Positions 1,631 to 56,849 of a stretch of 64,000 nucleotides of DNA are shown in pieces; position 1 is the stretch's first letter, and each line of letters begins with the position of its first letter. The notes beneath the pieces were generated by a model. That model saw nothing but the letters and a program-made list of their open reading frames with translations. It made no database searches and was not told the DNA's origin. Where the stretch lies: positions 1 to 64,000 of the forward strand of contig JAFSBZ010000033.1 of NCBI GenBank assembly GCA_017437005.1, given 5' to 3'. Source of the stretch: Clostridia bacterium. GTDB taxonomy: Bacteria > Bacillota > Clostridia > Oscillospirales > Acutalibacteraceae. The translations under genes and the position numbers were made by a program.

Positions 1631-1667
1631 CTTCTGTCAATATTGTGTATATAAACATTGACAGGAG
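1631..1667 (+). promoter_or_regulatory. Hairpin occluding the spoIIR ribosome binding site
   Basis: CTTCTGTCAAT (1631-1641) and ATTGACAGGAG (1657-1667) form an 11-bp stem with one G-T wobble and a 15-base loop. The whole Shine-Dalgarno AGGAG (1663-1667) lies in the 3' arm, seven bases before the spoIIR ATG. A short T-rich stretch follows, so the element could be a weak terminator for ispE, a translational brake on spoIIR, or both. Confidence 0.6.
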
Positions 1668-1674
1668 TATTTTT

Positions 1675-2298
1675 ATGAAAAAGCCAATTAGAAAAAATAT
1701 TGAACTTGGGGTATTGTTTGGGCTTGTGTGCGCTATAATGTTAAGCTTTGCTCGATTTGAGGTGCGCTGTGATGAATTGCGTCAGGGAGTGCTTAGATTG
1801 CATATAGTTGCAAACTCTGATAGCGAAGCGGATCAAAATTTAAAGCTTGCTGTTCGAGACGAAATACTTAAAAGCTCGGTCGATATTTTTAAAAACTGTA
1901 ATAATGTTGACCAAGCTATTGCAATAGCAAGCAAAAACATTGAAGCTATAAACACTATAGCCAATAATGTTTTAAAACAAAGTGGCTTTGGGTATGAGGC
2001 GAATGTTTCGGTAGGAAGTAAGTATTTTAACACCAGAGTATATGACGATTTTACATTGCCTGCCGGCAATTATACATCCTTGATTGTAGATTTAGGTGAG
2101 GCAAAGGGTAAAAATTGGTGGTGCGTGGTATTTCCGTGTGTTTGTGTTCCAAGTGCAAGTGATGCAACGCTTACAGATGGTGTTTCGTCTTATGCTGCAG
2201 ACACGGCCGAAAACGCTTCACAGTATAAAATCAGATTTAAAACAGTCGAACTTTATGAGAAATTTAAAAAATATTTGCAAAAAAATGATATTTTTTAA
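1675..2298 (+). CDS. spoIIR: Stage II sporulation protein R
   Basis: SpoIIR is the forespore-made, exported signal that triggers SpoIIGA to activate pro-sigma-E in the mother cell. The 207-residue protein begins with a basic N terminus and a single hydrophobic segment (about residues 11-27), then the conserved LRLHIVANSDSEADQNLKL block and a GNWWCVVFP-like motif (here GKNWWCVVFPCVCV), both diagnostic of the family. The start is ATG 1675, with AGGAG seven bases upstream; in-frame codons from 1615 belong to the spacer. In model species this gene is transcribed by sigma-F; I see no clear sigma-F promoter here. Its RBS lies in a hairpin. Confidence 0.93.
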   Translation: MKKPIRKNIELGVLFGLVCAIMLSFARFEVRCDELRQGVLRLHIVANSDSEADQNLKLAVRDEILKSSVDIFKNCNNVDQAIAIASKNIEAINTIANNVLKQSGFGYEANVSVGSKYFNTRVYDDFTLPAGNYTSLIVDLGEAKGKNWWCVVFPCVCVPSASDATLTDGVSSYAADTAENASQYKIRFKTVELYEKFKKYLQKNDIF

Positions 2299-2307
2299 AA
2301 ATAATGC

Positions 2308-2336
2308 TTGCTTTTTTTTAAGTTATGTGGTAGTAT
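2308..2336 (+). promoter_or_regulatory. Probable promoter of rpmE
   Basis: TTGCTT (2308-2313) and TAGTAT (2331-2336) are 17 bases apart, in the gap after spoIIR. It would uncouple the constitutive ribosomal-protein gene from the sporulation gene upstream. The -10 match is imperfect. Confidence 0.5.
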
Positions 2337-2370
2337 TCTAATGTTACAACGAAAGAAAGGGGTGACAAGG

Positions 2371-2577
2371 ATGAAGGAAGGTTTACATCCTCAGTACGAA
2401 AAGGTAACAATTAAATGTGCTTGTGGTGCCGAATTCGAGACACGCTCAACAAAGAAGGACATCCGTTTGGATATTTGTTCTAAATGTCATCCGTTTTTCA
2501 CTGGTAAGCAGAAGTTGGTAGATACCGGCGGACGTGTTGACAGATTTAAAAAGCGTTTCGGTATGGAAGATAAATAA
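2371..2577 (+). CDS. rpmE: 50S ribosomal protein L31, zinc-binding type
   Basis: Large-subunit ribosomal protein of 68 residues. It starts [16 protein letters not shown] and keeps the CxC (residues 16 and 18) and CxxC (in [10 protein letters not shown]) cysteines of the zinc-containing type, rather than the zinc-free paralogue induced under zinc limitation. The start is ATG 2371 with AAAGGGGTG eight bases upstream; the longer in-frame reading from 2308 runs across the promoter. A rho-independent terminator follows directly, so it looks like a single-gene transcript. Confidence 0.96.
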
Positions 2578-2591
2578 TTATTACCGCAATT

Positions 2592-2625
2592 CCGCAATCG
2601 GCCTACGGGGTGATTGCGGTTTTTT
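2592..2625 (+). terminator. Rho-independent terminator after rpmE
   Basis: CCGCAATC (2592-2599) pairs with GATTGCGG (2612-2619) around a 12-base loop and is followed by six T residues. Confidence 0.85.
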
Positions 2626-2647
2626 GTTTGGAAAGGCAGGTGTCATA

Positions 2648-3271
2648 ATGCAGGAATACACAACTGTAAGCGGAGAGTTTTCGGCAGAATATATCGAAAA
2701 ACATTCTCGCTTTATTGCGGTTTGCTTTAATTGCGAAACTGAAGCACAGGCAAGCGAAATAATTGCCGCACAAAAAAGCAAGTATTGGGATGCGCGACAT
2801 AATGTGTATGCCTATATTTTGCAGGATGGCACTATGCGTTTTTCGGATGATGGTGAGCCGCACGGCACGGCAGGAATGCCGATACTTGACGTGATAAAGG
2901 GTAGCGGAATTACCAATGTGTTAATTGTGGTTACCCGTTATTTTGGTGGAATACTGCTTGGCACAGGAGGACTTGTACGCGCATACAGTACCAGCGCACG
3001 CGATGCGCTTGCAGGCGCTACAAAGGTTTTAATGTGTGAATGTCAAGAGTACAGGGTAGATTGTGATTACGGTAGTTTTGACCGTCTTACAAGGCTTATA
3101 TCAGATTGTAACGGTATGGTTCAAAGCACCGATTTTACAGATAAGGTTATTGTAAGCGTTATGTTAAAAAAGTGCGAAAGCGAAGCCTTTTTGGAAAAGC
3201 TTTGCGAAACATTTGCATCAAAGCTTAAAGCAAATTTACAAAAAGAAATATTTTTTCCATTTATTTTGTAA
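2648..3271 (+). CDS. YigZ/IMPACT family protein
   Basis: A 207-residue member of the YigZ/IMPACT (UPF0029) family. The N-terminal IMPACT domain is clear from KHSRFIAV, DDGEPHGTAGMPIL and VTRYFGGILLGTGGLVRAY. The C-terminal ferredoxin-like domain (about residues 135-205) is typical of bacterial YigZ. The biochemical role is not settled; eukaryotic IMPACT modulates the translational regulator GCN1. Translation starts at ATG 2648 after AGG-rich sequence at 2633-2640; the earlier in-frame reading crosses the rpmE terminator. The gene sits between rpmE and dgt on the same strand. Confidence 0.9.
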   Translation: MQEYTTVSGEFSAEYIEKHSRFIAVCFNCETEAQASEIIAAQKSKYWDARHNVYAYILQDGTMRFSDDGEPHGTAGMPILDVIKGSGITNVLIVVTRYFGGILLGTGGLVRAYSTSARDALAGATKVLMCECQEYRVDCDYGSFDRLTRLISDCNGMVQSTDFTDKVIVSVMLKKCESEAFLEKLCETFASKLKANLQKEIFFPFIL

Positions 3272-3327
3272 AAAAAAGAGGATTTTTCAAAAAAATATGT
3301 AATATATATTTTAGAAGGAGTGATCTT

Positions 3328-4329
3328 GTGGAAAAAATCCGAGTTTTAACCGAGAACAGAGAAAAGGAATTTTTGTCTCCATATGCTACGCTAAGCACCG
3401 AATCGGTTGGCCGTGAGCGCAAGGAAGAAAAGTGCGAGCTACGTACAGATTTTCAGCGTGACCGTGACCGAGTAATACATTGTAAGGCATTTAGACGTTT
3501 AAAACACAAGACGCAGGTTTTTTTATCTCCCGAATCAGATCATTACCGCACCCGTCTTACGCACACGCTTGAGGTAGCTCAAATAGCGCGTACAATAGCG
3601 CGCGCGCTAAGATTTAACGAGGATCTTACCGAGGCTATCGCGTTAGCGCACGATTTAGGACACACTCCATTTGGACATGCAGGGGAAAGGGCACTTAATT
3701 CGATATATCCAGGTGGCTTTACTCACTTTGCGCAAAGCGTACGTGTTTGCCGTGTGATAGAAAAGGGCGGCAAGGGGCTAAATCTTACACACGAGGTTCT
3801 TGACGGAATTATGCATCATACTCGCGGTGAGTGGCCGCACACCCCCGAGGGTAAAATCGTTCGCTTTAGCGACCGCATCGCCTATATAAATCACGATATA
3901 GATGATGCCATTACAGCAGGTGTTTTTAGTGAAGAAAGCATCCCTCTCGAAATCAGAGAGGTTTTAGGCTTTAAAAAGAGCGAAAGAATAAACACCTTGG
4001 TAAAATCTCTTGTAGAAAACACCGAAAAAGACGATGTTAAGATGGACGAGCGTACTTTAAACGCTTATGAAAACTTGCATAATTTTATGTATGATACGGT
4101 ATATCTTAATCCGGTTGTTAAATTTGAAGAGACCAAGGTTGACGGAATTGTAAACGGAATATATGACTATTTGCTAAAAAATCCCGATAAGCTTGACGAT
4201 GAATACAATATAATCCGTGAGCGCGAGGGTATAGAGCGCGCCGCGGTGGATTATATTTCCGGTATGACCGATCATTTTGCTGTTACAATGTATTCAGATA
4301 TTTATATACCAAAAGAGTGGAAGGTTTAA
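3328..4329 (+). CDS. dgt: Deoxyguanosinetriphosphate triphosphohydrolase-like protein (HD domain)
   Basis: A 333-residue HD-superfamily nucleotide hydrolase related to Dgt, which cleaves dNTPs to the nucleoside and tripolyphosphate. Visible metal-site elements are RTRLTHTLEVAQIA (first His), AHDLGHTPFGHAGE (the HD pair and following His) and a later Asp in NHDIDDA. Length and motifs fit the clostridial Dgt-like type rather than the longer enterobacterial enzyme. It starts at GTG 3328 with AGAAGGAGTG well placed. It precedes dnaG and sigA, a common clostridial arrangement that couples dNTP housekeeping with the replication/transcription initiation cluster. The true substrate is not evident from sequence. 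Confidence 0.9.
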   Translation: MEKIRVLTENREKEFLSPYATLSTESVGRERKEEKCELRTDFQRDRDRVIHCKAFRRLKHKTQVFLSPESDHYRTRLTHTLEVAQIARTIARALRFNEDLTEAIALAHDLGHTPFGHAGERALNSIYPGGFTHFAQSVRVCRVIEKGGKGLNLTHEVLDGIMHHTRGEWPHTPEGKIVRFSDRIAYINHDIDDAITAGVFSEESIPLEIREVLGFKKSERINTLVKSLVENTEKDDVKMDERTLNAYENLHNFMYDTVYLNPVVKFEETKVDGIVNGIYDYLLKNPDKLDDEYNIIREREGIERAAVDYISGMTDHFAVTMYSDIYIPKEWKV

Positions 4330-4394
4330 TCTAAAGGTACGATATTTGGTGCATATATTATGATATTATAAACTAAAGGAAAGGGGAGTGCGAT

Positions 4395-6167
4395 ATGGCA
4401 ATACCAGAGGATATTATAAATGAAATTAAGATGCGAAACGATATAGAAACGGTTATGGCACCGTATGTAGATTTAAAACGTCGCGGTAAAAATTTGGTAG
4501 GCCTTTGTCCGTTTCATAATGAAAAAACCCCCTCCTTTACGGTTTATCCTGAAAACGGATCGTTTTATTGCTTTGGTTGCGGTGTAGGCGGTGATGTTTT
4601 TAGCTTTGTTAGGCAAATAGAAAATCTTGACTACATTGATGCTGTAAAGTTTCTGGCTGAGCGCAGTGGCATAACGCTTCCTCAAGACGGATATGACGAT
4701 TCCATGCAAAAGCTAAAAAATACAGTGTATGAAATAAATCGCGAAACCGCAAAATTTTATCATACATATCTTATGTCACCTGATGGCAAGTGGGCGCTGG
4801 ATTATCTTGTGGGCAGAGGGTTATCGATTTCTACCATAAAGCATTTTGGTCTTGGCGCCGCGCCTGACAGTTGGGATAGCCTTATAAAGCATCTTAAGGG
4901 CTTGGGTTACAGTATTTCCGATATGATACAGGCAAATGTTGTTGCAAAAAGCCAACGCGGAAGTTACTATGACCGATTCCGTAAGCGCGTAATGTTTCCT
5001 ATTATAAATATACGCGGCAAGGTAATTGCCTTTAGCGGACGCGCAATGCCCGGCGAGGATAAAGCGGGCGGTAAGTATGTAAACACAGCCGATACACCTG
5101 TTTATAAAAAGAGTGAAAATCTTTTTGGTATTAATTTTGCTAAAAATCATTGCGATGAGCGTGTGATTTTGGTTGAAGGTAATATGGATGTTATATCGCT
5201 GCATCAAGCAGGCTTTGAAAATGCTGTTGCAGCGTTAGGTACCTCATTTACCGAGGAACAGGCAAAGCTGTTGTCCAGATATACAAAAGAAATAGTACTA
5301 CTAATGGACTCGGATGCGGCTGGTCAAAAAGCGGCAAAGCGAGCGGGTGAAATTTTACAAAATACAGGTCTTGAAATAAGGGTACTATTGCTTCCTGATG
5401 GTAAGGATCCTGATGAATATATTAAAAAGAACGGTGCAGATAAGTTTAAGGCATTGCTTGATGGCGCTGTAAGTGAAATAGAATACAAGCTGCTTACTGC
5501 GGTTCAGGGTATTGATATTAATCAGGATGACGGTAAGCTACAGTATCTTTCCCGTGCGGTGAAAATCATTGCCGAATCAAACGATGTTATGACGCGTGAT
5601 TTGTATATAGGCCGTCTGTCAGATAAATATGGCGTGTCGCGCGCAGCACTTGAAACCAAGGTAGCCGACATACGCAAGGAAAAATTCAAACAACGCCAAA
5701 AGCGTGAAATAGAGCAGGTTGTTCATCCAAAATTTGACCGTACCGACGTTAATCCCGAAAGGCGTTTACATCCGGCAGCAGCGGTGGCAGAAGAAACGGT
5801 TATTGCTATACTGTTTCAGCATCCAAACACCTTTGATGCCACTTACGAGAAGCTAAAGCCCGATGATATGATAACATCACTGAATCGCCGAATATATAAA
5901 CATATATGCGAATGTGCAACCAGCGGCAGAAATCTTGATATATCATATTTTGGGGAGCTGCTTCCACCTGCTGAAATGGGTTACCTTACATCACTTGTTA
6001 ATAGTGAAAAGGGCGATAAAAACGCAGATGCTGTATTAAAGGACAGCATAAAGGTAATATTAGATGAGGGATTATTACGTGATACGCGAAATGTAAAAAA
6101 TATGTCTGTTGACGATTGGGCAGACAATCTACAAAAAATAATTGATGCAAAGAAAAAGGGGAACTAA
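4395..6167 (+). CDS. dnaG: DNA primase
   Basis: DnaG synthesises the RNA primers used by the replication fork. The 590-residue protein has an N-terminal CHC2 zinc finger (Cys38, His41, Cys59, Cys62), a catalytic core, and a TOPRIM domain with VEGNMDVI and LLMDSDAAG as metal-binding motifs. A C-terminal segment (from about 440) is for helicase interaction. ATG 4395 follows AAAGGGGAGTG. The stop lies two bases before the sigA ATG, so dnaG and sigA are certainly cotranscribed, as in the classical macromolecular-synthesis operon, here without rpsU. Confidence 0.97.
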
Positions 6168-12438: not shown

Positions 12439-12681
12439 TTAAAGAATACCGTTCTTTTTAAGCAAAGCTTTAACAGTGTCGGTTGGCTGAGCGCCGTTGC
12501 TGATCCACTTCTTTGCCTTTTCAGCGTCGATTTCTACGATAGCAGGGTCCTTTGTAGGATCAAAGTGACCGATTTCTTCGATGAAACGACCGTCACGTGG
12601 GTAACGAGAATCTGCAACAACAACACGGTAGAAAGGAGCCTTTTTTGCACCCATTCTGCGAAGTCTGATTTTTACTGCCAT
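12439..12681 (-). CDS. rpsP: 30S ribosomal protein S16
   Basis: An 80-residue r-protein, starting [26 protein letters not shown] and containing [14 protein letters not shown], both highly conserved. It binds 16S rRNA early in 30S assembly. ATG 12681 has GGAGGTGCAG immediately upstream. It lies between ffh and khpA in the SRP/ribosome operon. Confidence 0.97.
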
Positions 12682-12734
12682 TTTACTGCACCTCCATAAA
12701 AGAATGTATATATTTTATTTAAAAGAGATAACTC

Positions 12735-14081
12735 TTAAAAACCAAAGTTACCAAATTGGTTGGGGTTGATGCCTTTAAGCATACGTTTTTTACCCTTACC
12801 GTTCATTTGCTTGAACATTTTTTTCATTTGCTCGTATTGTTTTATAAGTCGGTTAACATCCTCAACCGTTTGTCCACAACCTGCGGCAATACGACGACGG
12901 CGAGACGCGTTTAAAATTTCGGGCTTGCGACGTTCTTTTGCGGTCATTGACTGAATAATGGCTTCAACGCGAAGCATTTGACGATCGTCAACGTCAACGT
13001 CACGTAGTTGTTTTTCCATACCCGGAAGCATAGAAAGCACGCTTTTTAAACTACCCATTTTTTTGATTTGCTGAAATTGGTCAAGTAAATCATTCATATC
13101 AAAACGATTTTCAGCAAGCTTTTGCGCGGCTTCTTCTGCCTTTTTTTGATCAAGCTGTTGTTCGGCGCGCTCGATAAGGGAGAGCATATCACCCATACCA
13201 AGTATACGGCTTGCCATTCGCTCAGGATGAAATTCTTCCAACTGGTCAAGCTTTTCACCAACGCCGGCAAACATAATGGGCTTTCCGGTAACGGCTTTTA
13301 CCGAAAGTGCGGCACCGCCACGGGTATCACCATCAAGCTTGGTAAGTACAATTCCGTCGATTTCGAGAATATCGTTAAACGCCTTTGCTATGTTTACGGC
13401 ATCTTGACCGATCATAGAGTCAACAACGAGAAGGATGTTGTTAACCTCGACACATTCGGTAATGCGTTTTAACTCTTGCATTAACTCTTCGTCTACGTGT
13501 AAGCGGCCTGCGGTATCAAGTATAACGTAATCATGACCGTAATCACGCGCGTATTTGATAGCTTCGACTGCTATTTTTTCAGGTCTTTCGGTTCCCATTT
13601 CAAAAACAGGAGTTTCAACCTGACGGCCAACAACCTTTAACTGCTCGATTGCGGCAGGGCGATATATATCGCAAGCAACAAGCATTGGTCTGTGCCCCTT
13701 TGATTTTAAAAGCTTTGCAAGCTTGGCGCTGTGTGTTGTTTTACCTGAACCCTGTAAACCGCACATCATAATAACGGTAGGAATTTTTGACGCTGTTTTT
13801 AAACGAGCTTGCTCGCTACCCATTAAAGCAGTCAGCTCTTCGTTAACAATTTTTATAACCATTTGTGGCGCGGTAAGACTCTCCATAACATTTGCGCCAA
13901 TACATTTTTCGGTAACAGTTGTGGTGAATTGCTTGGCCACTTTATAGTTAACGTCGGCTTCAAGAAGAGCAAGACGCACCTCACGCATAGCGTCTTTAAC
14001 GTCGCTTTCGGTAAGCCTGCCTTTGCTGCGTAGCTTTTTAAAAACGCCATTTATTTTATCTGAAAGACTTGAAAATGCCAA
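12735..14081 (-). CDS. ffh: Signal recognition particle protein Ffh (SRP54)
   Basis: Ffh is the GTPase of the signal recognition particle; it binds signal sequences and delivers ribosomes to FtsY at the membrane. The 448-residue protein has the N domain, a G domain with GLQGSGKTTHSAKLAK, DTAGRLHVDE, TKLDGDTRGG and the insertion-box region. A methionine-rich M domain (MTAKERRKPEILNASRRRRIA, then QMKKMFKQMNGKG) follows. It begins at TTG 14081 preceded by AGGTGA. The gene follows ylxM by 16 bases, the standard arrangement. Confidence 0.97.
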   Translation of the reverse strand: MAFSSLSDKINGVFKKLRSKGRLTESDVKDAMREVRLALLEADVNYKVAKQFTTTVTEKCIGANVMESLTAPQMVIKIVNEELTALMGSEQARLKTASKIPTVIMMCGLQGSGKTTHSAKLAKLLKSKGHRPMLVACDIYRPAAIEQLKVVGRQVETPVFEMGTERPEKIAVEAIKYARDYGHDYVILDTAGRLHVDEELMQELKRITECVEVNNILLVVDSMIGQDAVNIAKAFNDILEIDGIVLTKLDGDTRGGAALSVKAVTGKPIMFAGVGEKLDQLEEFHPERMASRILGMGDMLSLIERAEQQLDQKKAEEAAQKLAENRFDMNDLLDQFQQIKKMGSLKSVLSMLPGMEKQLRDVDVDDRQMLRVEAIIQSMTAKERRKPEILNASRRRRIAAGCGQTVEDVNRLIKQYEQMKKMFKQMNGKGKKRMLKGINPNQFGNFGF

Positions 14082-19862: not shown

Positions 19863-20018
19863 GCAGGAAATAGTTTTTAACTAACCGAAGGAGTAACACT
19901 CTCAGGTGCCCTATTGGGTGAGGACTGTAAACTGATAGCACTTTGGAGAAGCTTGATTAAATTCAAGTGCCGAAGGGGCAAAGCGCGTGCGTTAAATCTC
20001 TCAGGCAAAAGGACAAAG
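19863..20018 (+). ncRNA. Tandem glycine riboswitch
   Basis: Two consecutive aptamers are readable. Aptamer I (about 19863-19928) contains ACCGAAGGAGTAACA, CTCTCAGGT and AGGACTGT. Aptamer II (about 19940-20018) contains CTTTGGAGA, GCCGAAGGGGCAA, TCTCTCAGGCAAAAGGACA and closes with CAAAG pairing to CTTTG. These are the conserved glycine-binding cores. A terminator hairpin follows at 20060-20094 and a Na+/amino-acid symporter gene after that. Control is therefore by transcription attenuation in response to glycine. Whether glycine turns the gene on or off cannot be read by eye. Confidence 0.92.
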
Positions 20019-20059
20019 TTTTATCTTCACCTTATAAAAAGGTTTTATTTTGTTTTTTT

Positions 20060-48396: not shown

Positions 48397-48432
48397 AAAA
48401 GAGCAGACTTTATTTAAAGTCTGCTCTTTTTT
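48397..48432. terminator. Bidirectional terminator between Asp23 gene and kinase gene
   Basis: AAAAGAGCAGACTTT (48397-48411) pairs with AAAGTCTGCTCTTTT (48416-48430), loop ATTT, with T and A tracts on both strands. Confidence 0.93.
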
Positions 48433-49147
48433 ATAATGCTTCTGATAATTTTTTAACCGATTGATAGCGATTGTCAGGACTAATATCGGTGCATTTTTTA
48501 ACAATTTTTCCGGCCTTGCCTTTAACAACGGTTTCGCTTGGATGTTTTCCTGTAAGCATAACGTTAAGTAAAACGCCCATTGCATAAATGTCTGATCGGG
48601 AATCGGTTGCGTTAATTCCTAATTGTTCGGGTGAAGCGTAGCCCACAGTTCCCATAACAATTGTATCTTTAGGCTTGTTGGTTATTTGGCGCGAGATGTT
48701 AAAATCTATTAAAACTACGTCACCGGTATCCGAAATTATAATATTTTCAGGCTTTATATCACGATGAACAATGTTGTTTTTGTGTAAAATTTCAAGTGCG
48801 TTACAAATTGCGATAAGCACTCGCTTGGCACCGCGATATCGGTATTTGCCGCTTTTCATAACGTCGGCAACGGTTATGCCGCTTATAAATTCTTCTAAAA
48901 CAATTTGTCCGTCAGTAAGTGTTAAACAATCGTATACTTCGGGAAGATTATTTGAATTAATACCACACAAAATTTCGTATGCAGTAACAGCTTTCGGAAA
49001 GCTGTGCAGTACCAAATCACGATTTAGCTTATTGTGTCTTAGGTGCAAAACCTCGCAATCATTTTTTTTAGAGAGCACACCTACAAGGCGGTAACTTTCA
49101 AACAGGTTTTTTATGTATTGTTCGCGCGTTATATTTAAACTGTTCAT
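48431..49147 (-). CDS. Atypical Ser/Thr protein kinase
   Basis: A 238-residue stand-alone kinase domain. The catalytic loop VHRDIKPENIII (near residue 127) and GTVGYASPEQ activation segment with SDIYAMGVLL are intact. The Mg-binding DFG is DFN (LIDFNISR, near 149). The glycine-rich loop is missing (GVLSKKNDCEV), and the expected VAIK lysine position reads LVLH. Activity is therefore uncertain; it may be a divergent kinase or a pseudokinase. There is no membrane segment or sensor domain. ATG 49147 overlaps the end of the zinc-ribbon/BspA-like gene by four bases, which suggests that protein is its membrane partner or substrate. Confidence 0.82.
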   Translation of the reverse strand: MNSLNITREQYIKNLFESYRLVGVLSKKNDCEVLHLRHNKLNRDLVLHSFPKAVTAYEILCGINSNNLPEVYDCLTLTDGQIVLEEFISGITVADVMKSGKYRYRGAKRVLIAICNALEILHKNNIVHRDIKPENIIISDTGDVVLIDFNISRQITNKPKDTIVMGTVGYASPEQLGINATDSRSDIYAMGVLLNVMLTGKHPSETVVKGKAGKIVKKCTDISPDNRYQSVKKLSEAL

Positions 49148-50262
49148 TCAATATCGCCGCCGTTCCACTGCTTGTATTGCGCGTTATAGTTTTCTGCTAT
49201 GTTTCTGTAATAGTAATAATTAAAGTTTGTGCAGTCGCTTGAACAGTGTATAGTAAGCGTTCCGTTGCGATTATTTTTGCTTGCAAAAGCGGTTTCAAAT
49301 ATATCTATAGCTCGTCCGCGCAAATAAATATCGGTTAAATTATAGCAGCTTGAAAAAGCGTTTTGCCAAATTGTTTTAACTGTGTTAGGTACGATTACTT
49401 TTTTTACAGTTTGACTTATAGCAGAATCACAAAATGCATACGGCATTATACCACCAACCTTTTTGCCGTCGATGGTATCGGGTATATCGTATATTCCGTC
49501 GGATGCGGCTACACTCACACCCGTAATAACTATTACGTTTGTAATAGGCTGTGCAGGCATATTTTCTTCGGTATAACAGTCAGAGGCAACAGCGTTTCGG
49601 TAAATATATACTGCTTCTGTTTTGGTAGGTGTATTGTTATCGTTAGCGCTTTGATTATTTGAACTGTTATTTGTGCTGCCGGTGTCGTTACCTTGTTCGT
49701 TTGAATTTTTATTGTCATCAGCATTGCTGCTGGAATTGTCAGTGGCGGTGTTATTATTATCAGTAGAGTCGGTTGTTTCTGTGGTGGTATTATCTGTTGT
49801 TTTGTCTGTTTCGGTCGTAGTATCTTGCGGTTTTGCTGGCTTTGTCGCGGGTTTAGTGACATCGCCTTGCGCAGAACTATTTTCGTTGTTGGAAACAGTG
49901 GCTTCATTGGTCGATTTATCTTCAGTATCGTTGTGTGCAACGCTGTTATTAGCATCAGAGCTGTTGTTTGGTGTTTTGTCAACAGCGGTAGTGTTGTCGG
50001 CTGATATAGTTTCGCTATTGTTAGTAATTATCTCACTTTTGGGATAAGATTCGTCAGGAGTATTACCAATATCATTTTTACTTAAAGCTAAGATAACTAT
50101 TAATATAGTTATAATAGGCAACAAAAAGGCGGCTAAAATATATGGCCACCTTTTTTTAATTTTAGTAGTAATTACTTCTTTTTCTTGTAAAGAAGACATA
50201 CAAAACACGCAAAAACGCGCGTTATCTTCTATATCTGATTTGCAAAAAGGACATTTTTTCAT
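49144..50262 (-). CDS. Zinc-ribbon, membrane-anchored BspA-like protein
   Basis: A 372-residue protein. It has an N-terminal zinc ribbon (CPFCKSD, CVFCMSS) and one membrane segment (about 40-60). A Thr/Ser/Asn-rich disordered linker of about 150 residues follows, then a C-terminal BspA/LRR_5-type domain (GGIMPYAFCDSAISQTVKKVIVPNTVKTIWQNAF, YLRGRAIDIFETAF). The zinc ribbon would be cytoplasmic and the LRR outside. Linker codon repetition is high (ACA/AAC-rich). It sits between an HTH regulator and the kinase; the three genes abut or overlap. Confidence 0.8.
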   Translation of the reverse strand: MKKCPFCKSDIEDNARFCVFCMSSLQEKEVITTKIKKRWPYILAAFLLPIITILIVILALSKNDIGNTPDESYPKSEIITNNSETISADNTTAVDKTPNNSSDANNSVAHNDTEDKSTNEATVSNNENSSAQGDVTKPATKPAKPQDTTTETDKTTDNTTTETTDSTDNNNTATDNSSSNADDNKNSNEQGNDTGSTNNSSNNQSANDNNTPTKTEAVYIYRNAVASDCYTEENMPAQPITNVIVITGVSVAASDGIYDIPDTIDGKKVGGIMPYAFCDSAISQTVKKVIVPNTVKTIWQNAFSSCYNLTDIYLRGRAIDIFETAFASKNNRNGTLTIHCSSDCTNFNYYYYRNIAENYNAQYKQWNGGDIE

Positions 50263-50268: not shown

Positions 50269-50703
50269 TTACCCCAAGGTTTCCAAACCATAGTCATAAA
50301 GTATTTCGTTAATTTCTACAACCGACATTTTATTACAAATGCCGTAAATAATAATGCTATCAAACGGCAATTTAACATAGAGGGTAGAATATGAAGCGCA
50401 TTTTAAAAGAGTTTGAACTTCATCAAGAGACAACCCCATGGCAACAGCTATACACAAAAGCTTTTTACGTTCGGGAACACGCAGTCCCGAAAAAATTTGA
50501 TATGCATAAACCTCGCTCATTTCAGCCGCGCGAATAATTTGTGATTTTTTAAGATCATATTTTTTAATTAATTTATCCAAAAGCTCAGATAAGTTTTCTT
50601 TGACCATATAATCCTTATTTTCATTATAAAAAGTTGTAAAATCGGGGCAAAGTCTAAGCTCATCTACAATTTTTGAAGTATCTTTAGGCACAAATAACAC
50701 CAA
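50269..50703 (-). CDS. HTH (XRE-like) regulator of the kinase cassette
   Basis: A protein of 140-144 residues with a helix-turn-helix (LIKKYDLKKSQIIRAAEMSEVYAYQIFSGLRVPERKKLLCIAVAMGLSLDEVQTLL) and a C-terminal helical region ending EINEILYDYG. The first usable starts are TTG 50703, GTG 50700 and GTG 50691. The last has GGTG six bases upstream and is my preferred start. It lies directly after a promoter whose -35 is within a 15-bp inverted repeat, so it may autoregulate. It is six bases upstream of the zinc-ribbon/BspA-like gene. Confidence 0.72.
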   Translation of the reverse strand: MVLFVPKDTSKIVDELRLCPDFTTFYNENKDYMVKENLSELLDKLIKKYDLKKSQIIRAAEMSEVYAYQIFSGLRVPERKKLLCIAVAMGLSLDEVQTLLKCASYSTLYVKLPFDSIIIYGICNKMSVVEINEILYDYGLETLG

Positions 50704-50857: not shown

Positions 50858-51115
50858 ATGGACAAAATTATAAATAAATTATTTAACGATTACCTTTCTG
50901 AACAAAAAATAGCCGCAAACTCCGATTATTCTGTTTTTGCAAAAAATGCTTTAGAAAAGGAGATAGAGTTGCGAAGCCTGCTAAACCCTGAGCAAACAAA
51001 ATGCTTTGAGGCGCTGTTTGAATTGACCTCACAAATACATTTTATGGAAGTAAAGGATGCGTTTTTTTGTGCTTGTAGATTAGGAGCAAAAGCATCAAAA
51101 GAATTAATTATTTAA
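50858..51115 (+). CDS. Small DUF6809-like protein
   Basis: An 85-residue acidic-helical protein with EQTKCFEALFELTSQIHF followed by AFFCACRLGAKASKELI. The layout is the same as in the 100-residue protein at 9288-9590 (CNAW...FIMGFRLGANFAYD). I class both in the same loose family, function unknown. AATGGAGGCAATTAA precedes ATG 50858. It is convergent with the XRE gene and overlaps its end by eight bases. Confidence 0.6.
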   Translation: MDKIINKLFNDYLSEQKIAANSDYSVFAKNALEKEIELRSLLNPEQTKCFEALFELTSQIHFMEVKDAFFCACRLGAKASKELII

Positions 51116-51350
51116 GTTCTTGTTCAAGATTTTGATATTCGGGTGTATCAAAAAATTCCATCATAGTAATTTCGAGCCCGTCGCAAATTTTTTTAATGGT
51201 TACAATACCCGGATTTTTACTTTCGCCATTTAGAATACTTTTAATTGTTGCTTGTGAAACACCACACATATAACTAAGGGCATTAGGCGTAATTTTACGT
51301 TCGCGACAAAGTTGGTAAATTCGGTTTACAGTATATTTATGAATACCCAT
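51108..51350 (-). CDS. XRE-family transcriptional regulator
   Basis: An 80-residue protein that is almost entirely a Cro/CI-type HTH: ITPNALSYMCGVSQATIKSILNGESKNPGIVTIKKICDGL, followed by EFFDTPEYQN. It is divergent from the SPFH operon, and the shared 155-base intergenic region contains at least two 18-bp palindromic sites, so it is the likely repressor of both. ATG 51350 has AGGTGAAAAT upstream. Confidence 0.88.
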   Translation of the reverse strand: MGIHKYTVNRIYQLCRERKITPNALSYMCGVSQATIKSILNGESKNPGIVTIKKICDGLEITMMEFFDTPEYQNLEQELK

Positions 51351-51408
51351 ATTTTCACCTACAAATTAGCAATTATATATAGATGTTATATCACTATAAA
51401 AACATTTG

Positions 51409-51477
51409 TTAGTTATATATCACTAATTATTGTTGACTTAAAACGAAAAATATGTATAATTAGTTATATATCACTAA
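51409..51477 (+). promoter_or_regulatory. SPFH-operon promoter between two 18-bp operators
   Basis: TTAGTTATATATCACTAA occurs exactly at 51409-51426 and 51460-51477; each is a near-palindrome (TTAGT/ACTAA arms). A shortened copy (GTTATATCACTA) lies near 51385. Between them, TTGACT (51433-51438) and TATAAT (51455-51460) are 16 bases apart, the second operator touching the -10. A repressor bound to both would block transcription of the plus-strand operon. Confidence 0.85.
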
Positions 51478-51505
51478 CAAATGATACGGTTACGGAGGAA
51501 TTTTA

Positions 51506-52687
51506 GTGTCAAAAATAGCTGACGTAATAAAATACGAGGGCGACAATACCACTTTTGTTTGGAAGCATCCCTGTGAGGATTTTAACAGTCTGACCCAACT
51601 TATAGTTCACGAAACGCAAGAAGCAATATTTTTCTTAAATGGTCAGGCGCTTGATATGTTTGGCACCGGTCGTTATACTCTTGAGACACAAAATATTCCC
51701 TTAATTGGAAAAACCTTAAATCGTAGCGTAGGTGATACTTCGCCTTTTCACTGTGAAGTATATTTCATAAACAAAACAGAACAAATGGCTATTAAATGGG
51801 GTACTGATTCCAAGGTGCAGTATGTTGAGCCTACATATGGATTTCCTATTTCTATTGGCGCATCGGGAGATATGTCGCTAAAGATATCCGATAGCCGAAA
51901 ACTGCTCGTTAAACTGGTCGGAACCGAAAACATACTTTCACAAAGCAAATTGTTATCATATTTTCGTTCAATTCTTATAGCGAGGGTAAAAACCTATATT
52001 GCCCAAGTTATGAAATCAAGCGCCATAAATATTTTTGAAATAGATCAAAATCTCACCTTGTTTTCGGATTCGATAAAGCGACTTATTGAGCCGGATTTTA
52101 GTGATTATGGCATAGCTGTCGAAAAGTTTTTTGTTACAACGATTGTAAAACCAGACGGTGAAATTCAATATGAAAAGTTTAAGGAACTACATTTCCGTCA
52201 ATATGCTGATATAGCCGAGGCAAAGCTTCGTCAACAGGTAGACATTATTGAGGCTGAAACACAGGCAAAAAAAACAATCATAGAGTCTAAAGCCCTCGCT
52301 CAAAAAAGAATAACCGAGGGTTATACCTACGGCCAAGAACGAGGATTCGACGTAGCCGAAAAGGTAGCAGAAAACGAAGCTGTTGGTGAATTTACCAATA
52401 TGGGCGTCGGTTTTGGAACCATGGCCGGTGTGGGCGGCGCCGTTGGTGGAATGGTAGGTACAGCAATGCAGGATGCTTTAAATTCGGCGGGTAACACCTC
52501 CACACCAACTGTTCACATTTTTTGTGAAAACTGTGGCGCAAGATTAGGTATAGATGCAGTATTTTGTGAAGAATGCGGCAACCGTGTTCAAAAAAGAAAT
52601 AGTTGTAAAAACTGCGGATATATTTTTGAACGTCAAGGAAGGTTTTGTCCAAAGTGCGGCGACAAGCGGGAGGATAGTTATGAATAA
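51506..52687 (+). CDS. SPFH-domain protein with C-terminal zinc ribbons (YdjI-like)
   Basis: A 393-residue protein. It has an SPFH/stomatin-like domain (about 15-230) with the AEAKLRQQVDIIEAETQAKK coiled coil, then a Gly-rich segment (about 295-325). Three to four CxxC knuckles follow at the C terminus (CENCGARL, CEECGNRV, CKNCGYIF, CPKCGDKR), making two zinc ribbons. Bacillus YdjI has this architecture and is recruited by YdjG-YdjH to bind PspA. GTG 51506 follows GGAGG. It heads an operon of membrane proteins controlled by the XRE operators. Confidence 0.88.
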   Translation: MSKIADVIKYEGDNTTFVWKHPCEDFNSLTQLIVHETQEAIFFLNGQALDMFGTGRYTLETQNIPLIGKTLNRSVGDTSPFHCEVYFINKTEQMAIKWGTDSKVQYVEPTYGFPISIGASGDMSLKISDSRKLLVKLVGTENILSQSKLLSYFRSILIARVKTYIAQVMKSSAINIFEIDQNLTLFSDSIKRLIEPDFSDYGIAVEKFFVTTIVKPDGEIQYEKFKELHFRQYADIAEAKLRQQVDIIEAETQAKKTIIESKALAQKRITEGYTYGQERGFDVAEKVAENEAVGEFTNMGVGFGTMAGVGGAVGGMVGTAMQDALNSAGNTSTPTVHIFCENCGARLGIDAVFCEECGNRVQKRNSCKNCGYIFERQGRFCPKCGDKREDSYE

Positions 52688-53360
52688 AACTTTTAAATCT
52701 TACATTGCTGTTTGGGCTATATGTTTTATTCTTTTTAACGCTATAGCATTTATTATTCCCAACGAGCTAAAAAGCAATTTTTGGAATGGCTATATTTTTA
52801 TTACGTTGACATTTTTTGGGCAATTATTTTGCGCTAACATAGCTTTTAAATCCGAAAATGCTCAAAAATTCTTTTATAATTTTCCGTTAATTTCAATTAG
52901 TTTTATCGGTGTAGTAGCTATGCTTGTAATAGGCGGCTTAACAATGGCTATAACAGCTATACCTGTTTGGGTGGGAATTGTTTTATGCTTGATTGTATTA
53001 GCATTTACAGCAATAGCTGTTATAAACGTATCGATTGTAAGTGAGACTGTAAGTACAGTAGATAATAAAACAAAAGCAAACACTTTTTTTGTTAAAGCAC
53101 TTATTGCCGATGCGCAAATTTTGATGCTAAACGCCGAAACTGCACAAACAAAAGATATAACTAAAAAGGTTTATGAAGCCATAAGATACAGTGACCCTAT
53201 AAGCAGTAACGAATTAAGTGATATTGAGGCGCAAATAACGGCTGACTTCAGAAAGTTTGAAAATGCTATACAAACAAACGCTGAAAACGCAACATCTATA
53301 GGTGAGAAGCTTGTTATCTTAATAGAAAATCGTAATACTAAATGTAAGTTTTTTAAATAA
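52680..53360 (+). CDS. Four-segment membrane protein with cytoplasmic helical domain
   Basis: A 226-residue protein with four membrane segments (about 7-27, 38-58, 70-92, 98-120) and a C-terminal soluble helical region (LIADAQILMLNAETAQTKDITKKVYEAIRYSDPI). No family recognised. ATG 52680 overlaps the SPFH stop by eight bases, so translation is coupled. An alternative reading from 52554 duplicates SPFH codons in another frame and is not real. Probably the membrane docking partner of the SPFH protein. Confidence 0.72.
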   Translation: MNKTFKSYIAVWAICFILFNAIAFIIPNELKSNFWNGYIFITLTFFGQLFCANIAFKSENAQKFFYNFPLISISFIGVVAMLVIGGLTMAITAIPVWVGIVLCLIVLAFTAIAVINVSIVSETVSTVDNKTKANTFFVKALIADAQILMLNAETAQTKDITKKVYEAIRYSDPISSNELSDIEAQITADFRKFENAIQTNAENATSIGEKLVILIENRNTKCKFFK

Positions 53361-53372
53361 GGGGTAAAATAG

Positions 53373-54323
53373 GTGGCATTAACTTGTAAAAATTGCGGTG
53401 GCAATATTAATTTTGACATAAATACAAAAATTATGACCTGTGAATCCTGTGGTTCAAGTCAATCAATTAATACGGTAGTTGGCGAAAACGATAGCATATA
53501 CACATCTAATGAGGATAGCGAAAATATAGATACATATCGTAACGCGCTAAATTTAATGACTTCGGCAACAGAAATAGGTGGACTAAAAACAGCGAAAATG
53601 CTATTTGAAAGCATACCCGACACATTAAATTCTCGTTCTCTTTCAAAAGAATGTGAAGAAAAAATTACTTTATTAAAAACAGAAACACAATACCAAAAAG
53701 CGCTTTTGGATATGCAAAGTGAAGATGCCGACACAATTGCTTTGGCTCAAAATGTTTTTGAAGCGTTACAAGACTATAAAGATTCTATGTCAAAAAAAGA
53801 AGAGTGTAACTCGCTTATAGAAAAAGCACGGGTATTACAAGCTGAAAAGGTCAAAAAAGAGCAGCAGCAAGCAAGAAGACGTCGTTTTAAACGCAGAATA
53901 ATAAGTGTTATTTTAATAATATTTTTAATTATCGGTTTATTAGTTAACAACTATATTCACTCTGCATCGCGTTACGAAATTGAAATTACCCCAACAATAA
54001 AAAATTATCTTACCGAAAGAGGCAATAATTATGAATTTTGCTACGATGTCAAGGTAGAAAATAACGGTTTGATAGATATAACTGCGTTAGAATGTTCGGT
54101 GATAATACAAAAAGATGACGATGTTATTACCGACACAACAATTTCGTTTGATAATTATTCATCGGTTGCCGTAAGAGCTCAAAAAAATGCTCGCTTTACG
54201 TGGAATCTTACCACCAATTCGCAATATGTTGCCGAACAGCTTTATTATAATTTTGATGATTTGGATTTAGAGATAAAAATAACAAAAATCAAATTCAAAA
54301 ACGGAAAAATAAAAACTTATTAA
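53373..54323 (+). CDS. Zinc-ribbon, single-span protein with extracytoplasmic domain (YdjG-like)
   Basis: A 316-residue protein: an N-terminal zinc ribbon (CKNCGGN, CESCGSS), a helical region with repeat-like segments (about 50-150), a strongly basic stop (RRRRFKRR), one membrane segment (about 177-195) and an outside beta-rich domain with DVKVENNGLIDITALEC. This order resembles Bacillus YdjG. GTG 53373, preceded by GGGGTAAAATA. It lies 12 bases after the four-segment protein. Confidence 0.72.
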   Translation: MALTCKNCGGNINFDINTKIMTCESCGSSQSINTVVGENDSIYTSNEDSENIDTYRNALNLMTSATEIGGLKTAKMLFESIPDTLNSRSLSKECEEKITLLKTETQYQKALLDMQSEDADTIALAQNVFEALQDYKDSMSKKEECNSLIEKARVLQAEKVKKEQQQARRRRFKRRIISVILIIFLIIGLLVNNYIHSASRYEIEITPTIKNYLTERGNNYEFCYDVKVENNGLIDITALECSVIIQKDDDVITDTTISFDNYSSVAVRAQKNARFTWNLTTNSQYVAEQLYYNFDDLDLEIKITKIKFKNGKIKTY

Positions 54324-54338
54324 TGAGGAGAACGGCTT

Positions 54339-54365
54339 ATGAATCATAATCGAGGTCATCCATAA
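54339..54365 (+). other. Eight-codon ORF with a good RBS
   Basis: GAGGAGAACGGCTT precedes ATG 54339, which opens only MNHNRGHP before TAA. It may be the severed start of a lost gene or a tiny leader ORF between two operon genes. I cannot choose between these. Confidence 0.3.
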
Positions 54366-54409
54366 AATCAGTTCAAAATATTTTTAAAAATGAAAAGGAG
54401 TTATTAATT

Positions 54410-55024
54410 ATGGAAAATGTTTACAACAACACTTCAAACGGTAATAAGCACGATAGAGAATGGTATTTTTCTGAAGAAGGTCGTATTGCATATGAACAAG
54501 CCGACAGTATACTTAAGAAAATTGAGTATTTTTACAATTATTTAAATGCAGGCTACTCAAGCGGTGGAAGCGAATCAGATTACAAATTTGCAATTTTATT
54601 AGCTTGTGGAATTGCAAATTCAAGATTTTCTTATTCCAAATATCCCGATATTTTAAGCGAAAAAAGTAATCCATTTATGAAATTATATTTGGTTGACGGA
54701 TTATTGGGCTATGAGGAAAATGCAGCTGAATTGATGGGTTGTCTGCACGAAAAATCTGATTATGCCAATAAAAAACGCAAAGCATCGTGCAGATATGACG
54801 AATGGATAGCGTTACAAATGCCACAAGATCGTTCTATGGAAGACATTTATAGAATCGAAAGATTGATAATTTGGCTTTTTGGCGAATTTGTCGCAAACAA
54901 AGAGCTTGTTAATGAGCCTGTAATAAAGTATTACCCTTACGAGATTGACTCGTTCCTATTAAATTATAGCGGCTCAGAAGACGACGAATACGACGAAGAG
55001 GATTATTTAGTAGAGGAGGAATAA
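54410..55024 (+). CDS. Unknown cytoplasmic protein in the SPFH operon
   Basis: A 204-residue acidic protein without membrane segments or a family I recognise. It begins with an Asn-rich stretch, has aromatic-rich helices (DREWYFSEEGRIAYEQADSILKKIEYFYNYL) and ends in an acidic tail (EDDEYDEEDYLVEEE). AAAAGGAG precedes ATG 54410. Its stop is three bases before the next gene, so it belongs to the operon downstream of the zinc-ribbon protein. Confidence 0.6.
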   Translation: MENVYNNTSNGNKHDREWYFSEEGRIAYEQADSILKKIEYFYNYLNAGYSSGGSESDYKFAILLACGIANSRFSYSKYPDILSEKSNPFMKLYLVDGLLGYEENAAELMGCLHEKSDYANKKRKASCRYDEWIALQMPQDRSMEDIYRIERLIIWLFGEFVANKELVNEPVIKYYPYEIDSFLLNYSGSEDDEYDEEDYLVEEE

Positions 55025-55027
55025 AAT

Positions 55028-55819
55028 ATGAATAAACAAGAGATAATTAAACAATTAAGAGAAATTGCCTCATTAAGATCAGATATACTTATCAGAAAAG
55101 GTGAAAACAATATAGGAAATTGCACCGAACCTATTGAAGAAACCGCAAAAGCAGTAAAACAAGTATTTGCAGACTATAATTTAACAAGACCGACAATACC
55201 ACAAATTTTTGAGGATTATGACCTGTTTAAAAACGGTCCGCAAACTGAAACCGATTCAAACTCAAAACCAAAATTAATAGCAAGCGGAATTGTAGGATTT
55301 GCAGTAATGATAATTACAGGAATGGCAGGACTTAAGTCAACACCTGCAATAATAATTGGTATAGTTGCGGCGATAGTTACCCTAATTTTAATCAGTAAAT
55401 TATCTAAAAATAAATCTGCTCAAACCCCTAAAGCTCCAACTTGGCAGGAAAAGTATGCTAATTACGATTTCGATACCGAAATAGAAAAGTTTTTTAGTGA
55501 GTGTAAAACGTTTGATGAGCAATTTTTAGTGATTATCAAGCCTTGGGCTGACATAATGGAAGCAAGAAGAGAAAAGAAAGTTTCGAATGATAAGACAATA
55601 GAAGAAGCAAAAGAAAAGCTTTCAAAGTATACCATTATTGATAGAGAATATTTTGCTATTGCAGATAGAATAGCAGGTGTTTTACAGGATGATCGCGCTG
55701 AAGAATTAGGCGAGGCAATAAATATTGTCCTTGAAGAAATACGCGCCGAAGAACAGTTAAAAGCAACTAAAGAACAAAATAAAAAGCTTGAAAAAATTGA
55801 AGAGCTTTTTGACCTATAA
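55028..55819 (+). CDS. Membrane protein with two central segments, last gene of the SPFH operon
   Basis: A 263-residue protein. It has an N-terminal soluble helical domain, two membrane segments close together (about 85-102 and 106-125), then a soluble domain (WQEKYANYDFDTEIEKFF) and a C-terminal coiled coil (EEQLKATKEQNKKLEKIEEL). No family recognised. GAGGAGGAATAAAAT precedes ATG 55028. The hairpin topology and coiled coil would suit a partner that binds the SPFH protein at the membrane. Confidence 0.6.
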   Translation: MNKQEIIKQLREIASLRSDILIRKGENNIGNCTEPIEETAKAVKQVFADYNLTRPTIPQIFEDYDLFKNGPQTETDSNSKPKLIASGIVGFAVMIITGMAGLKSTPAIIIGIVAAIVTLILISKLSKNKSAQTPKAPTWQEKYANYDFDTEIEKFFSECKTFDEQFLVIIKPWADIMEARREKKVSNDKTIEEAKEKLSKYTIIDREYFAIADRIAGVLQDDRAEELGEAINIVLEEIRAEEQLKATKEQNKKLEKIEELFDL

Positions 55820-55876
55820 TAATCAAAAAATAAAACAGGGTTATCAAATCCTGTTTTAGACTACGCATAAAGTTTT

Positions 55877-55916
55877 AAAGAGGATGTCTCGCTTAGTTAG
55901 CAAGACATCCTCTTTT
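55877..55916. terminator. Bidirectional terminator after the SPFH operon
   Basis: AAAGAGGATGTCT (55877-55889) pairs with AGACATCCTCTTT (55903-55915) followed by T residues. A weaker hairpin, AAAACAGG/CCTGTTTT, precedes it (about 55835-55858). Confidence 0.9.
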
Positions 55917-55919
55917 TCA

Positions 55920-56849
55920 TTACAGCTTATTTAACATTTTTTCTATTGAATCATCATTTTTAAAATCTACGTCGCACGGTTTTTTGTGCATAGACCAATG
56001 CTCTGTAAGCTCTACGGTTTCATTTGGTGACACCAATTTTAACGGACTAAGTGATTCAACCTCGATAAAGCCGTTGTTTGTAAAGGTTTCAAAGCTGCAG
56101 TCGTTATCGGGGTAAACCTCAGTTTCGTGATTGGTGTCATACGATTTACGGAATACGTCCTCACCTAAGCAATAATATGCTTCGGCATTATTAAGACCAA
56201 ATCCCAACTTAAATGATTGAGCGTTATTTTTGTCTTGATGTAGTGTTACATAGCTTTTACCAAAATACACGCGTGGGTCAGCAAGATTAGTATATGGCCA
56301 TACCGATATATTACGATTATGCAAAAGCCCTGTATCGTTGCTGTTCATTGGCATTATAAGTGTACCGTCGGTTGCTGATACGGTAAGTCCCCAGATAGCA
56401 AATTTTTGTGGCTTGTCTGCGATGTTTGTAACGCGCATAGTAACGTACATATTAGCATCGTCGGGATCCATTTTAATTTCTAACTGCTTTTGCCGGCCGT
56501 TTTCTTTTTCGGGATTTGGGGTAAATATTGCGCCGTGTTCGGTAATTTCATATTTTACGGGGTCAAGGTCGGGGTAGTAGCTGTGGGGATAGCTTTCGGG
56601 GGAAGTCCATATGCGGTGACCGCCTAAAATCTCCCACTTTCTGCCCTCACCAAAAAAGTCGCAAAATTCACGGTCTTCTTTTGGTGCCATAACACTACGG
56701 TTATCACACATAATGTTTTGTCCGCCCATATATCCAAAACGGATAATACGAGGACCTACATCAACGGTTACAAGCGCTTCAATTACGCCGTTAGACAGGC
56801 TTAACACCTTGCCGTAGTTTTTGTAATCTTTAATTTCGGTTTTAATCAT
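55920..56849 (-). CDS. Mutarotase-fold protein of unknown substrate
   Basis: A 309-residue protein of the galactose-mutarotase-like beta-sandwich type (DUF4380-like). Segments such as LSNGVIEALVTVDVGPRIIRFGYMGGQNIMCD and GGHRIWTSPESYPHSYYPDLDPV are typical of these carbohydrate-associated proteins. It would be cytoplasmic (no signal peptide). A galactokinase and esterase nearby point to sugar handling, though on the other strand. The start overlaps the tmcAL stop by four bases (ATGA-type), so it is cotranscribed with tmcAL. Confidence 0.75.
   Translation of the reverse strand: MIKTEIKDYKNYGKVLSLSNGVIEALVTVDVGPRIIRFGYMGGQNIMCDNRSVMAPKEDREFCDFFGEGRKWEILGGHRIWTSPESYPHSYYPDLDPVKYEITEHGAIFTPNPEKENGRQKQLEIKMDPDDANMYVTMRVTNIADKPQKFAIWGLTVSATDGTLIMPMNSNDTGLLHNRNISVWPYTNLADPRVYFGKSYVTLHQDKNNAQSFKLGFGLNNAEAYYCLGEDVFRKSYDTNHETEVYPDNDCSFETFTNNGFIEVESLSPLKLVSPNETVELTEHWSMHKKPCDVDFKNDDSIEKMLNKL

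Follow-up and report, generated by a model that had tools for sequence, protein, structure and literature searches.

Is a repressor-controlled set of membrane-scaffold genes in a gut bacterium a copy of a known envelope-stress operon, or does it represent a separate system with the same scaffold? The question is raised by a locus in the window, which is the 64,000-nucleotide stretch of Clostridia bacterium DNA that we analyzed (assembly GCA_017437005.1, contig JAFSBZ010000033.1, positions 1 to 64,000). At 51108..55819 the window holds a gene for an XRE regulator and, divergent from it, five genes that begin with one for an SPFH protein. An earlier note on this DNA had likened the set to YdjGHI of Bacillus and had proposed that new subunits replace PspA. 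Our analysis indicates that the cassette is a real, recurring variant of the SPFH membrane operon. The reading that we prefer, with a probability of about 0.46, is drawn from sequence comparisons: the cassette may be an XRE-silenced, horizontally mobile and PspA-independent membrane platform with interchangeable modules, in its TIR-less form here. Because its relatives often include an immune-type TIR domain, it gives the impression of a membrane alarm that can be switched, and not of a copy of the Bacillus stress operon. There is good support for the anatomy of the cassette and for its being separate from PspA, and an immune role is plausible.

The five genes are encoded on the same strand with intergenic spacings of -8, 12, 86 and 3 nt. 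A purine-rich stretch precedes the start of each of them and they probably form a single transcript. The first gene (51506..52687, + strand) starts with GTG and encodes a 393-aa protein with an SPFH domain (Band_7_1; PF13421, E 7.9e-39) and a double zinc ribbon (DZR, E 4.2e-9). Its score of 133.9 bits against a curated cut-off of 24 places it in PF13421. The second gene (52680..53360, +) encodes a 226-aa membrane protein with four spans predicted by hydropathy (hereafter TM4); the same method predicts four spans in 64 of the 69 homologues in its alignment. The soluble C-terminal part of TM4 bears the signature YSDPMS...RNxKCKLLK, and no Pfam family matched the protein above its cut-off. The product of the third gene (53373..54323, +; 316 aa) consists of a zinc ribbon, helical repeats, a single span and a C-terminal domain, as judged from conserved cysteines, from its match to TIR proteins and, for the span, from hydropathy; it is referred to below as the zinc-ribbon protein. 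The last two genes encode p5 (54410..55024, +; 204 aa), an acidic protein (40 D/E, 21 K/R) with no transmembrane helix, and p6 (55028..55819, +; 263 aa), which has two predicted transmembrane helices (84-102 and 107-125). Both have homologues in the loci L102 and L011, at about 30% for p5 and about 25% for p6. A strong hairpin followed by a T-run at 55877..55915 (fold of 55820-55925, z -9.1) is a likely terminator. It precedes a converging gene at 55920 and is absent from the list of a simple terminator scan. A sequence search of the PDB returned nothing at E 0.01 for the SPFH profile A3; the matches of TM4 and p5 were weak, with best E values of 0.022 and 0.007. The layout drawn in the earlier note was thus reproduced: the XRE gene is divergent from the five-gene run, the positions of the genes are correct, the SPFH protein ends in two zinc ribbons, and a four-span and a single-span protein follow with close or overlapping spacing. 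In the 86-nt gap before p5 (54324-54409) a Shine-Dalgarno-like stretch and an 8-codon frame with a stop can be seen by eye; they may be a leader or a remnant.

An alignment of the SPFH protein was scanned against a collection with one genome per species (84,980 species). The scan confirmed 458 relatives, of which the best 80 were kept; counts out of 80 refer to these SPFH loci nearest to that of the window, all of which gave an SPFH match. The query was the SPFH protein alone. Each of the ten sequences aligned for it was taken from a TM4-containing locus, so that SPFH loci farther away may look different. Some genes were missed when open reading frames were called by length and were recovered with a stop-to-stop profile search. 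TM4 was sought within 2.5 kb downstream of the SPFH gene, and PspA up to a distance of 9 kb, or as far as the locus extends.

Where 900 bp or more of downstream sequence is available (75 loci), a TM4 gene lies by the SPFH gene in 73 cases. Where the downstream sequence reaches 3.5 kb or more (64 loci), TM4 is found in 62 cases, the zinc-ribbon protein in 61 and a TIR domain in 25. The SPFH, four-span and zinc-ribbon proteins are therefore a recurring trio, which occurs in TIR-bearing and TIR-less forms. TM4 homologues were likewise seen next to SPFH in G655, G693, G861 and G736, which are larger genomes from distant members of the phylum. Among eight distant loci of our first set TM4 was detected in L055, L057, L059 and L062 and went undetected in L056, L058, L060 and L061. 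The fact that TM4 was found at E 0.001 in eight of the 299 phylum genomes drawn, the window's own included, shows that the trio is widespread but patchy in its distribution. In L056 (7105-7578) and in L058 the SPFH and zinc-ribbon genes are separated by one for a small protein of membrane type, about 150 aa long; this is possibly a short version of the membrane partner. SPFH-TM4 cassettes were also seen in metagenome-assembled genomes labelled Chloroflexota (L084, a TIR form on a 36-kb contig) and Bacteroidota (L152, on a 3.3-kb contig), either by transfer across phyla or by misbinning.

Next we compared the cassette with the PspA system. According to PMC8581546, YdjG and YdjH are needed for the recruitment of YdjI and PspA to the membrane in B. 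subtilis. Two other papers describe YdjG as two zinc ribbons with a YpeB-related domain and a transmembrane segment, YdjH as a TPM domain with a low-complexity part (both PMC11237479), and the zinc ribbon of YdjG (PMC9239133). As in this operon, pspA-ydjGHI (ydjFGHI), the cassette combines in one operon an integral membrane partner, a zinc-ribbon membrane protein and a PF13421 SPFH protein that has a zinc ribbon of its own at the C-terminus (PMC8581546, PMC9239133 and PMC11237479). Unlike it, the cassette has no PspA, a partner with no TPM match and a zinc-ribbon protein without the body of YdjG; its SPFH gene stands first instead of last, and XRE operators take the place of the sigma-W promoter of B. 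subtilis. Two loci, L258 and L259, have the gene order PspA, zinc-ribbon protein, fourth protein, SPFH and were taken as pspA-ydjG/H/I-like operons. Their fourth protein, in the position of YdjH, is presumably a TPM protein. TM4 has no TPM match, and a comparison of its profile with the two YdjH-position proteins gave no sign of homology (hhalign probability 4.3%). The zinc-ribbon protein aligned with the YdjG-position proteins over a 28-residue zinc ribbon only (95.7%), with the rest unaligned. The likeness to YdjGHI lies in the shared SPFH family and zinc-ribbon parts; it does not extend to TM4 or to the body of the zinc-ribbon protein. TM4 differs also from YqiJ/YuaF-type membrane partners, also called NfeD, in that it has no Pfam match above the cut-off, four spans and a signature-bearing soluble C-terminal part. 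The juxtaposition of an SPFH gene and a gene for a multi-span membrane protein as such is shared with the SPFH (band-7/flotillin) operons that have those partners (PMC11237479).

The view that p5 or p6 took the place of PspA had to be given up. Comparison of their profiles with PspA from the family genomes gave 0.1-0.2% in hhalign, and both were rejected as substitutes. The window cassette is without PspA, as the earlier note had stated, and it was found near none of the 80 loci; the same profile does detect PspA in L258-L261. The PspA-less state is thus the usual one in this operon family and not a local replacement. No PspA was found in the window's genome, which is 85% complete. Five of 120 family genomes have a PspA above the cut-off, and no SPFH, TM4 or zinc-ribbon gene was detected in the 6-12 kb read around it. 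G736 contains both systems, namely the trio (L221) and a separate pspA-ydjG/H/I-like operon (L258). In a sparse SPFH tree of 39 rows, which is without YdjI of B. subtilis itself, the four PspA-linked SPFH proteins group together (100/100), and a branch with 98/98 support separates them from the side on which all rows labelled TM4 lie; the tree program warns of long branches and odd composition in the PspA-linked rows. The window SPFH falls in a group of 22 rows (100/97). The negative profile comparisons, the coexistence of both systems in G736 and the separate SPFH groups make the trio and PspA-YdjGHI look distinct. This bears on a reading in line with the earlier note, in which the cassette would serve YdjGHI-type envelope-stress protection with PspA recruited from elsewhere or dispensable. 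A B. subtilis protein also falls in PF13421, SPFH and zinc-ribbon parts are present in both operons, and the requirement of YdjI for YdjG/YdjH in its membrane recruitment, reported in PMC8581546, would fit such a scheme. With no PspA found in the 85%-complete genome or near any of the 80 loci, with TM4, p5 and p6 unlike their supposed counterparts and with both systems side by side in G736, we consider this explanation improbable.

The zinc-ribbon protein is a variable part of the trio. We collected 80 such proteins, 79 from the surveyed loci and the window's own. The four ribbon cysteines are invariant in all 80, albeit partly by selection because the proteins were picked by their ribbon. TIR_2 was found in 29 of them, and a zinc-ribbon-borne TIR in 28 of the 80 loci. 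The motif WV[KR]NEW, presumably the position of the catalytic glutamate in TIR NADases, is kept in all 29 TIR proteins (27 with K and two with R). The window protein has no TIR match, so that a TIR domain is not present in this cassette. A window-type profile made from two sequences (window and L051) aligns with the TIR proteins over their helical repeats and transmembrane segment (best E 1e-23). The window protein is therefore most simply a TIR-less form of a family with zinc ribbon, TPR-type repeats and TIR. The C-terminal domains found among the 80 proteins are DUF6273 (15), DUF6591 (9), RCC1 (4), the L7/L12 C-terminal domain (4), leucine-rich repeats (3), EF-Tu domain 2 (2) and Ank (2). 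The L7/L12 domain was seen in the TIR proteins of L043 (7233-8927) and L044 (541-2820), the former also with EF-Tu domain 2; such translation-factor pieces might be decoys or docking parts. A protein of the TIR type in L053 (2915-6559) ends, by eye, in long RCC1-like repeats.

Presence of TIR was also mapped onto an SPFH tree of 82 rows, built with a quick method and with SH-aLRT support. It requires at least six changes over 67 labelled rows, 28 of them with TIR, and one side of the tree with 23 rows contains no TIR-labelled row. The window clade is flanked by groups of two and ten rows, and TIR rows come next after these. In the tree with 39 rows, TIR rows are the nearest: the window belongs to a group of eight in which the six rows other than L102 carry TIR.

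The window cassette consists of the TIR-less trio and an accessory pair, p5-p6. At the thresholds used, p5 has no family in Pfam, NCBIfam, PADLOC or PHROGs, and p6 has only chance-level matches in the same databases (best E 0.012, PADLOC). The claim that the last two genes are conserved together with the SPFH gene held in one respect: the pair recurs beside the trio in L102, a locus from a yak colon metagenome. It is rare, with this single case among the 80 loci, and the idea that p5-p6 regularly belong to the operon was rejected on this count and on those given below. In the 82-row tree the SPFH proteins of the window, C43, L114 and L102 group in a single clade (SH-aLRT 97), in which the branch of L102 is long. 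C43, a contig of 5370 bp from the window's own assembly (locus L005), is cut off inside the zinc-ribbon gene and before p5. L114 (2140-4650) is a decayed copy in which the SPFH match is broken after residue 243 and TM4 was not detected; the regulator and operators are present. Since C43 stops short and L114 is decayed, the window and L102 are the two readable members of the clade, and both carry p5-p6. The p5 profile matched one of 391 genomes of the class, the window's own. Among 147 genomes of the order, again with the window's own, p5 was found in two and p6 in three, with one p6 match over about 70 residues only. The p5 and p6 proteins of L102 gave no plasmid record, its p5 no phage record, and the p6 alignment matched no viral contig. 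In L102 a 138-aa protein (12665-13081) comes after p6. The pair in L011 (366-3206) is preceded by a 162-aa protein that looks P-loop-like by eye and is followed by one of 168 aa.

How is the cassette controlled? The XRE/Cro-C1 repressor (51108..51350, - strand) is a protein of 80 aa with a single helix-turn-helix (HTH_26, E 4.7e-12). Between its gene and the SPFH gene we found the 18-bp operator TTAGTTATATATCACTAA, an imperfect palindrome with two mismatches to its own reverse complement, in two identical copies: O1 (51409..51426, +) upstream of the -35 element and O2 (51460..51477, +) abutting the -10 element. Between them lies a sigma-70-type promoter, TTGACT-16-TATAAT (51433..51460, +), with 11 of 12 consensus positions. 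A search with up to three mismatches gave four matches in the window, namely O1 and O2 on both strands, against 0.13 expected; none of 100 shuffles reached four. This confirms the two exact operators around the promoter that had been noticed from the sequence before. The core of a third, half-conserved site, O3 (51384..51396, +), appears as a conserved block in an alignment of the XRE-SPFH intergenic sequences from four loci (window, C43, L114 and L124). It lies within a putative promoter for XRE (51400-51372, - strand; 10/12 in the scan). The conserved islands of this alignment are mainly O3, O1, the -35 and -10 elements, which are largely kept, and O2. In the window O1 and O2 are spaced by 51 bp, in each of the other three loci by 52 bp. 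C43 has one exact operator and one with a single mismatch, and the XRE proteins of the four loci are 83-88% identical. Together, these results support a dedicated XRE operator system for an SPFH/zinc-ribbon membrane cassette.

The XRE profile matched upstream in seven of the 80 loci, strongly in L114, L124, L130 and L133 and weakly in L113, L122 and L126. The regulators of L130 and L133 are 47-48% identical to that of the window and the sequences upstream are different; L102 has a different helix-turn-helix gene and another upstream sequence. The conserved XRE/operator unit is found on cassettes of different SPFH clades: L124 has a window-type XRE gene and operators and yet belongs to the other side of the 82-row tree. 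The best reading of this is that the unit moves between cassettes. A gene for an 85-aa DUF6809 protein (50858..51115, +; PF20648, E 1.8e-11) converges tail-to-tail on the XRE gene with an 8-bp 3' overlap, an arrangement that is kept in the window, C43, L114 and L124. This protein could be a partner or antirepressor of XRE.

Several observations point to mobility. The G+C content of the cassette is 34%, compared with 38.6% for the window, which is consistent with transfer. The complete Butyrivibrio plasmid pNP21 holds a trio whose neighbours are a toxin-antitoxin pair, a recombinase and a restriction S subunit, and whose TM4 match is divided between two adjacent reading frames. Five IMG/VR contigs carry an SPFH protein of the trio kind, one of them with TIR. 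When 49 of the 61 proteins called on these contigs were scanned, three trio proteins among them, integrase and DNA invertase families were matched by five proteins each, which may be the same five, and portal, terminase and tail sheath by one each. Of the 584 candidate genes in the flanks of the 80 loci, 145 were scanned as well. As a control served 116 genes from 15 arbitrarily picked stretches of family genomes and from positions 1-26000 of the window. TnpV and phage integrase match three flank genes each (among the best 25 of 138 Pfam families) and are not among the control matches listed (best 25 of 178 families). These data are relevant to the idea that the cassette is mobile-element cargo for exclusion or addiction, in which XRE would silence a membrane-perturbing cassette until loss or entry of an element switches it on. 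A short, sensorless XRE with an autoregulatory operator layout, the plasmid- and phage-linked copies and the decay of the copy in L114 would all be expected from such cargo. An XRE match at only seven of the 80 loci, four strong and three weak, and flanks whose Pfam families are mostly metabolic (145 genes, best 25 of 138 families) would not, and this explanation seems very improbable.

The same surroundings were inspected for defence genes. Thoeris ThsB and others are TIR-domain defence proteins, and 28 of the 80 loci resemble them in having TIR_2 with WV[KR]NEW; the window copy differs in being without TIR. One may therefore ask whether the system is an SPFH-anchored, TIR-type anti-phage defence in which infection would trigger a TIR NADase and for which the window would use p5-p6 as an alternative effector. 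This idea would account for the TIR domains in 29 of the 80 zinc-ribbon proteins and their intact motif, for the highly variable, sensor-like C-terminal domains, for repressor control and for the copies next to restriction and toxin-antitoxin genes or on contigs with phage genes. For the 145 flank genes, the matches listed (best 25 of 77 families) include three defence models with one member each, SduA, AbiEi and PDC-S02; the 116 control genes, however, also gave one member each of MTase_III, DRT (RT_UG29) and MzaA (all 14 families), so that among the families listed no clear excess pointed to placement in a defence island. PADLOC models are weak (E 7e-7 or worse) for three of six trio and TIR proteins and absent for the other three. 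No model matched SPFH or TM4 of the window and of L043, and the TIR domains of relatives gave weak matches at most (ThsB1|ThsB, E 0.008; PDC-S66, E 1.6e-6). PADLOC likewise offers nothing for p5 and E 0.012 for p6, and the majority of the 80 trios have no TIR. On balance we regard anti-phage immunity as unlikely, albeit worth keeping in mind.

For the switchable platform that we prefer, we infer a mechanism of the following kind. XRE would occupy O1 and O2 across the cassette promoter and O3 over its own promoter and would thereby keep both off. Upon derepression the SPFH protein would oligomerise on the cytoplasmic face of the membrane, anchored there by the four-span protein. The zinc-ribbon protein would dock on this platform, cross the membrane and sense the state of the envelope via its outer domain. 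The output would be the TIR domain in TIR-bearing relatives and, in the clade of the window, most likely p5-p6, that is a soluble acidic protein and one with two transmembrane helices. Envelope attack, phage included, would be the likeliest trigger.

A number of results weigh against this scheme. L011 (genome G075) holds the p5-p6 pair with no SPFH gene in the 12 kb read, and because the pair occurs there without a nearby SPFH, p5 and p6 need not belong to the platform. The change counts on the tree fit loss and gain of TIR alike. L076/L093 and the ten-row group beside the window clade (SH-aLRT 86) hold no TIR-labelled row; with such groups adjoining, the tree does not show p5-p6 directly replacing TIR. 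XRE is without a sensor domain that could point to a trigger of derepression. C43 may be a paralogue or a binning contaminant, and the survey is confined to the closest 80 of the 458 relatives.

A broader proposal, for which we see some grounds and which we still hold to be doubtful, is that the trio may be an undescribed and widespread bacterial immune platform. A stomatin-type membrane cage would then present interchangeable zinc-ribbon sensors, with TIR or p5-p6 as effectors. No description of an SPFH-4TM-zinc-ribbon-TIR module was found in the literature searched, which included few subscription papers and preprints. Few bacterial SPFH membrane organisers have known partners. The trio provides a large family, with its 458 relatives in the collection scan, with a regular membrane partner that is separate from PspA, and adds a variable, often TIR-bearing, zinc-ribbon partner. 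This opens the question of whether a stomatin-type scaffold can be an assembly site for bacterial TIR signalling.

The conserved surroundings of the cassette extend to the left as far as about 48431, beyond the genes listed in the earlier note. This region contains a triad on the - strand: a Ser/Thr protein kinase (48431..49147; Pkinase, E 2.5e-32), a zinc-ribbon protein with a single span and BspA-type leucine-rich repeats (49144..50262; LRR_5, E 9.9e-7) and an XRE-like protein of 144 aa (50269..50703). We take the triad to be a separate module. All three genes adjoin the cassette in the window and in C43, and homologues of the kinase and the 144-aa protein are near the cassette in L114, L124 and L102. 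The family of the 144-aa protein is present in 45 of 120 family genomes, and close SPFH relatives in far fewer of those 120; the triad is furthermore inverted in L114. The triad was rejected as a part of the cassette for these two reasons. C43 holds a second, contig-truncated copy of the block (1-5370) with a DNA identity of 75% to the window and 86% to L114; its left 330 bp are unmatched in the window. Far from the cassette, at 19933-20026 of the window, we found a glycine riboswitch aptamer (Rfam RF00504, 63.2 bits).

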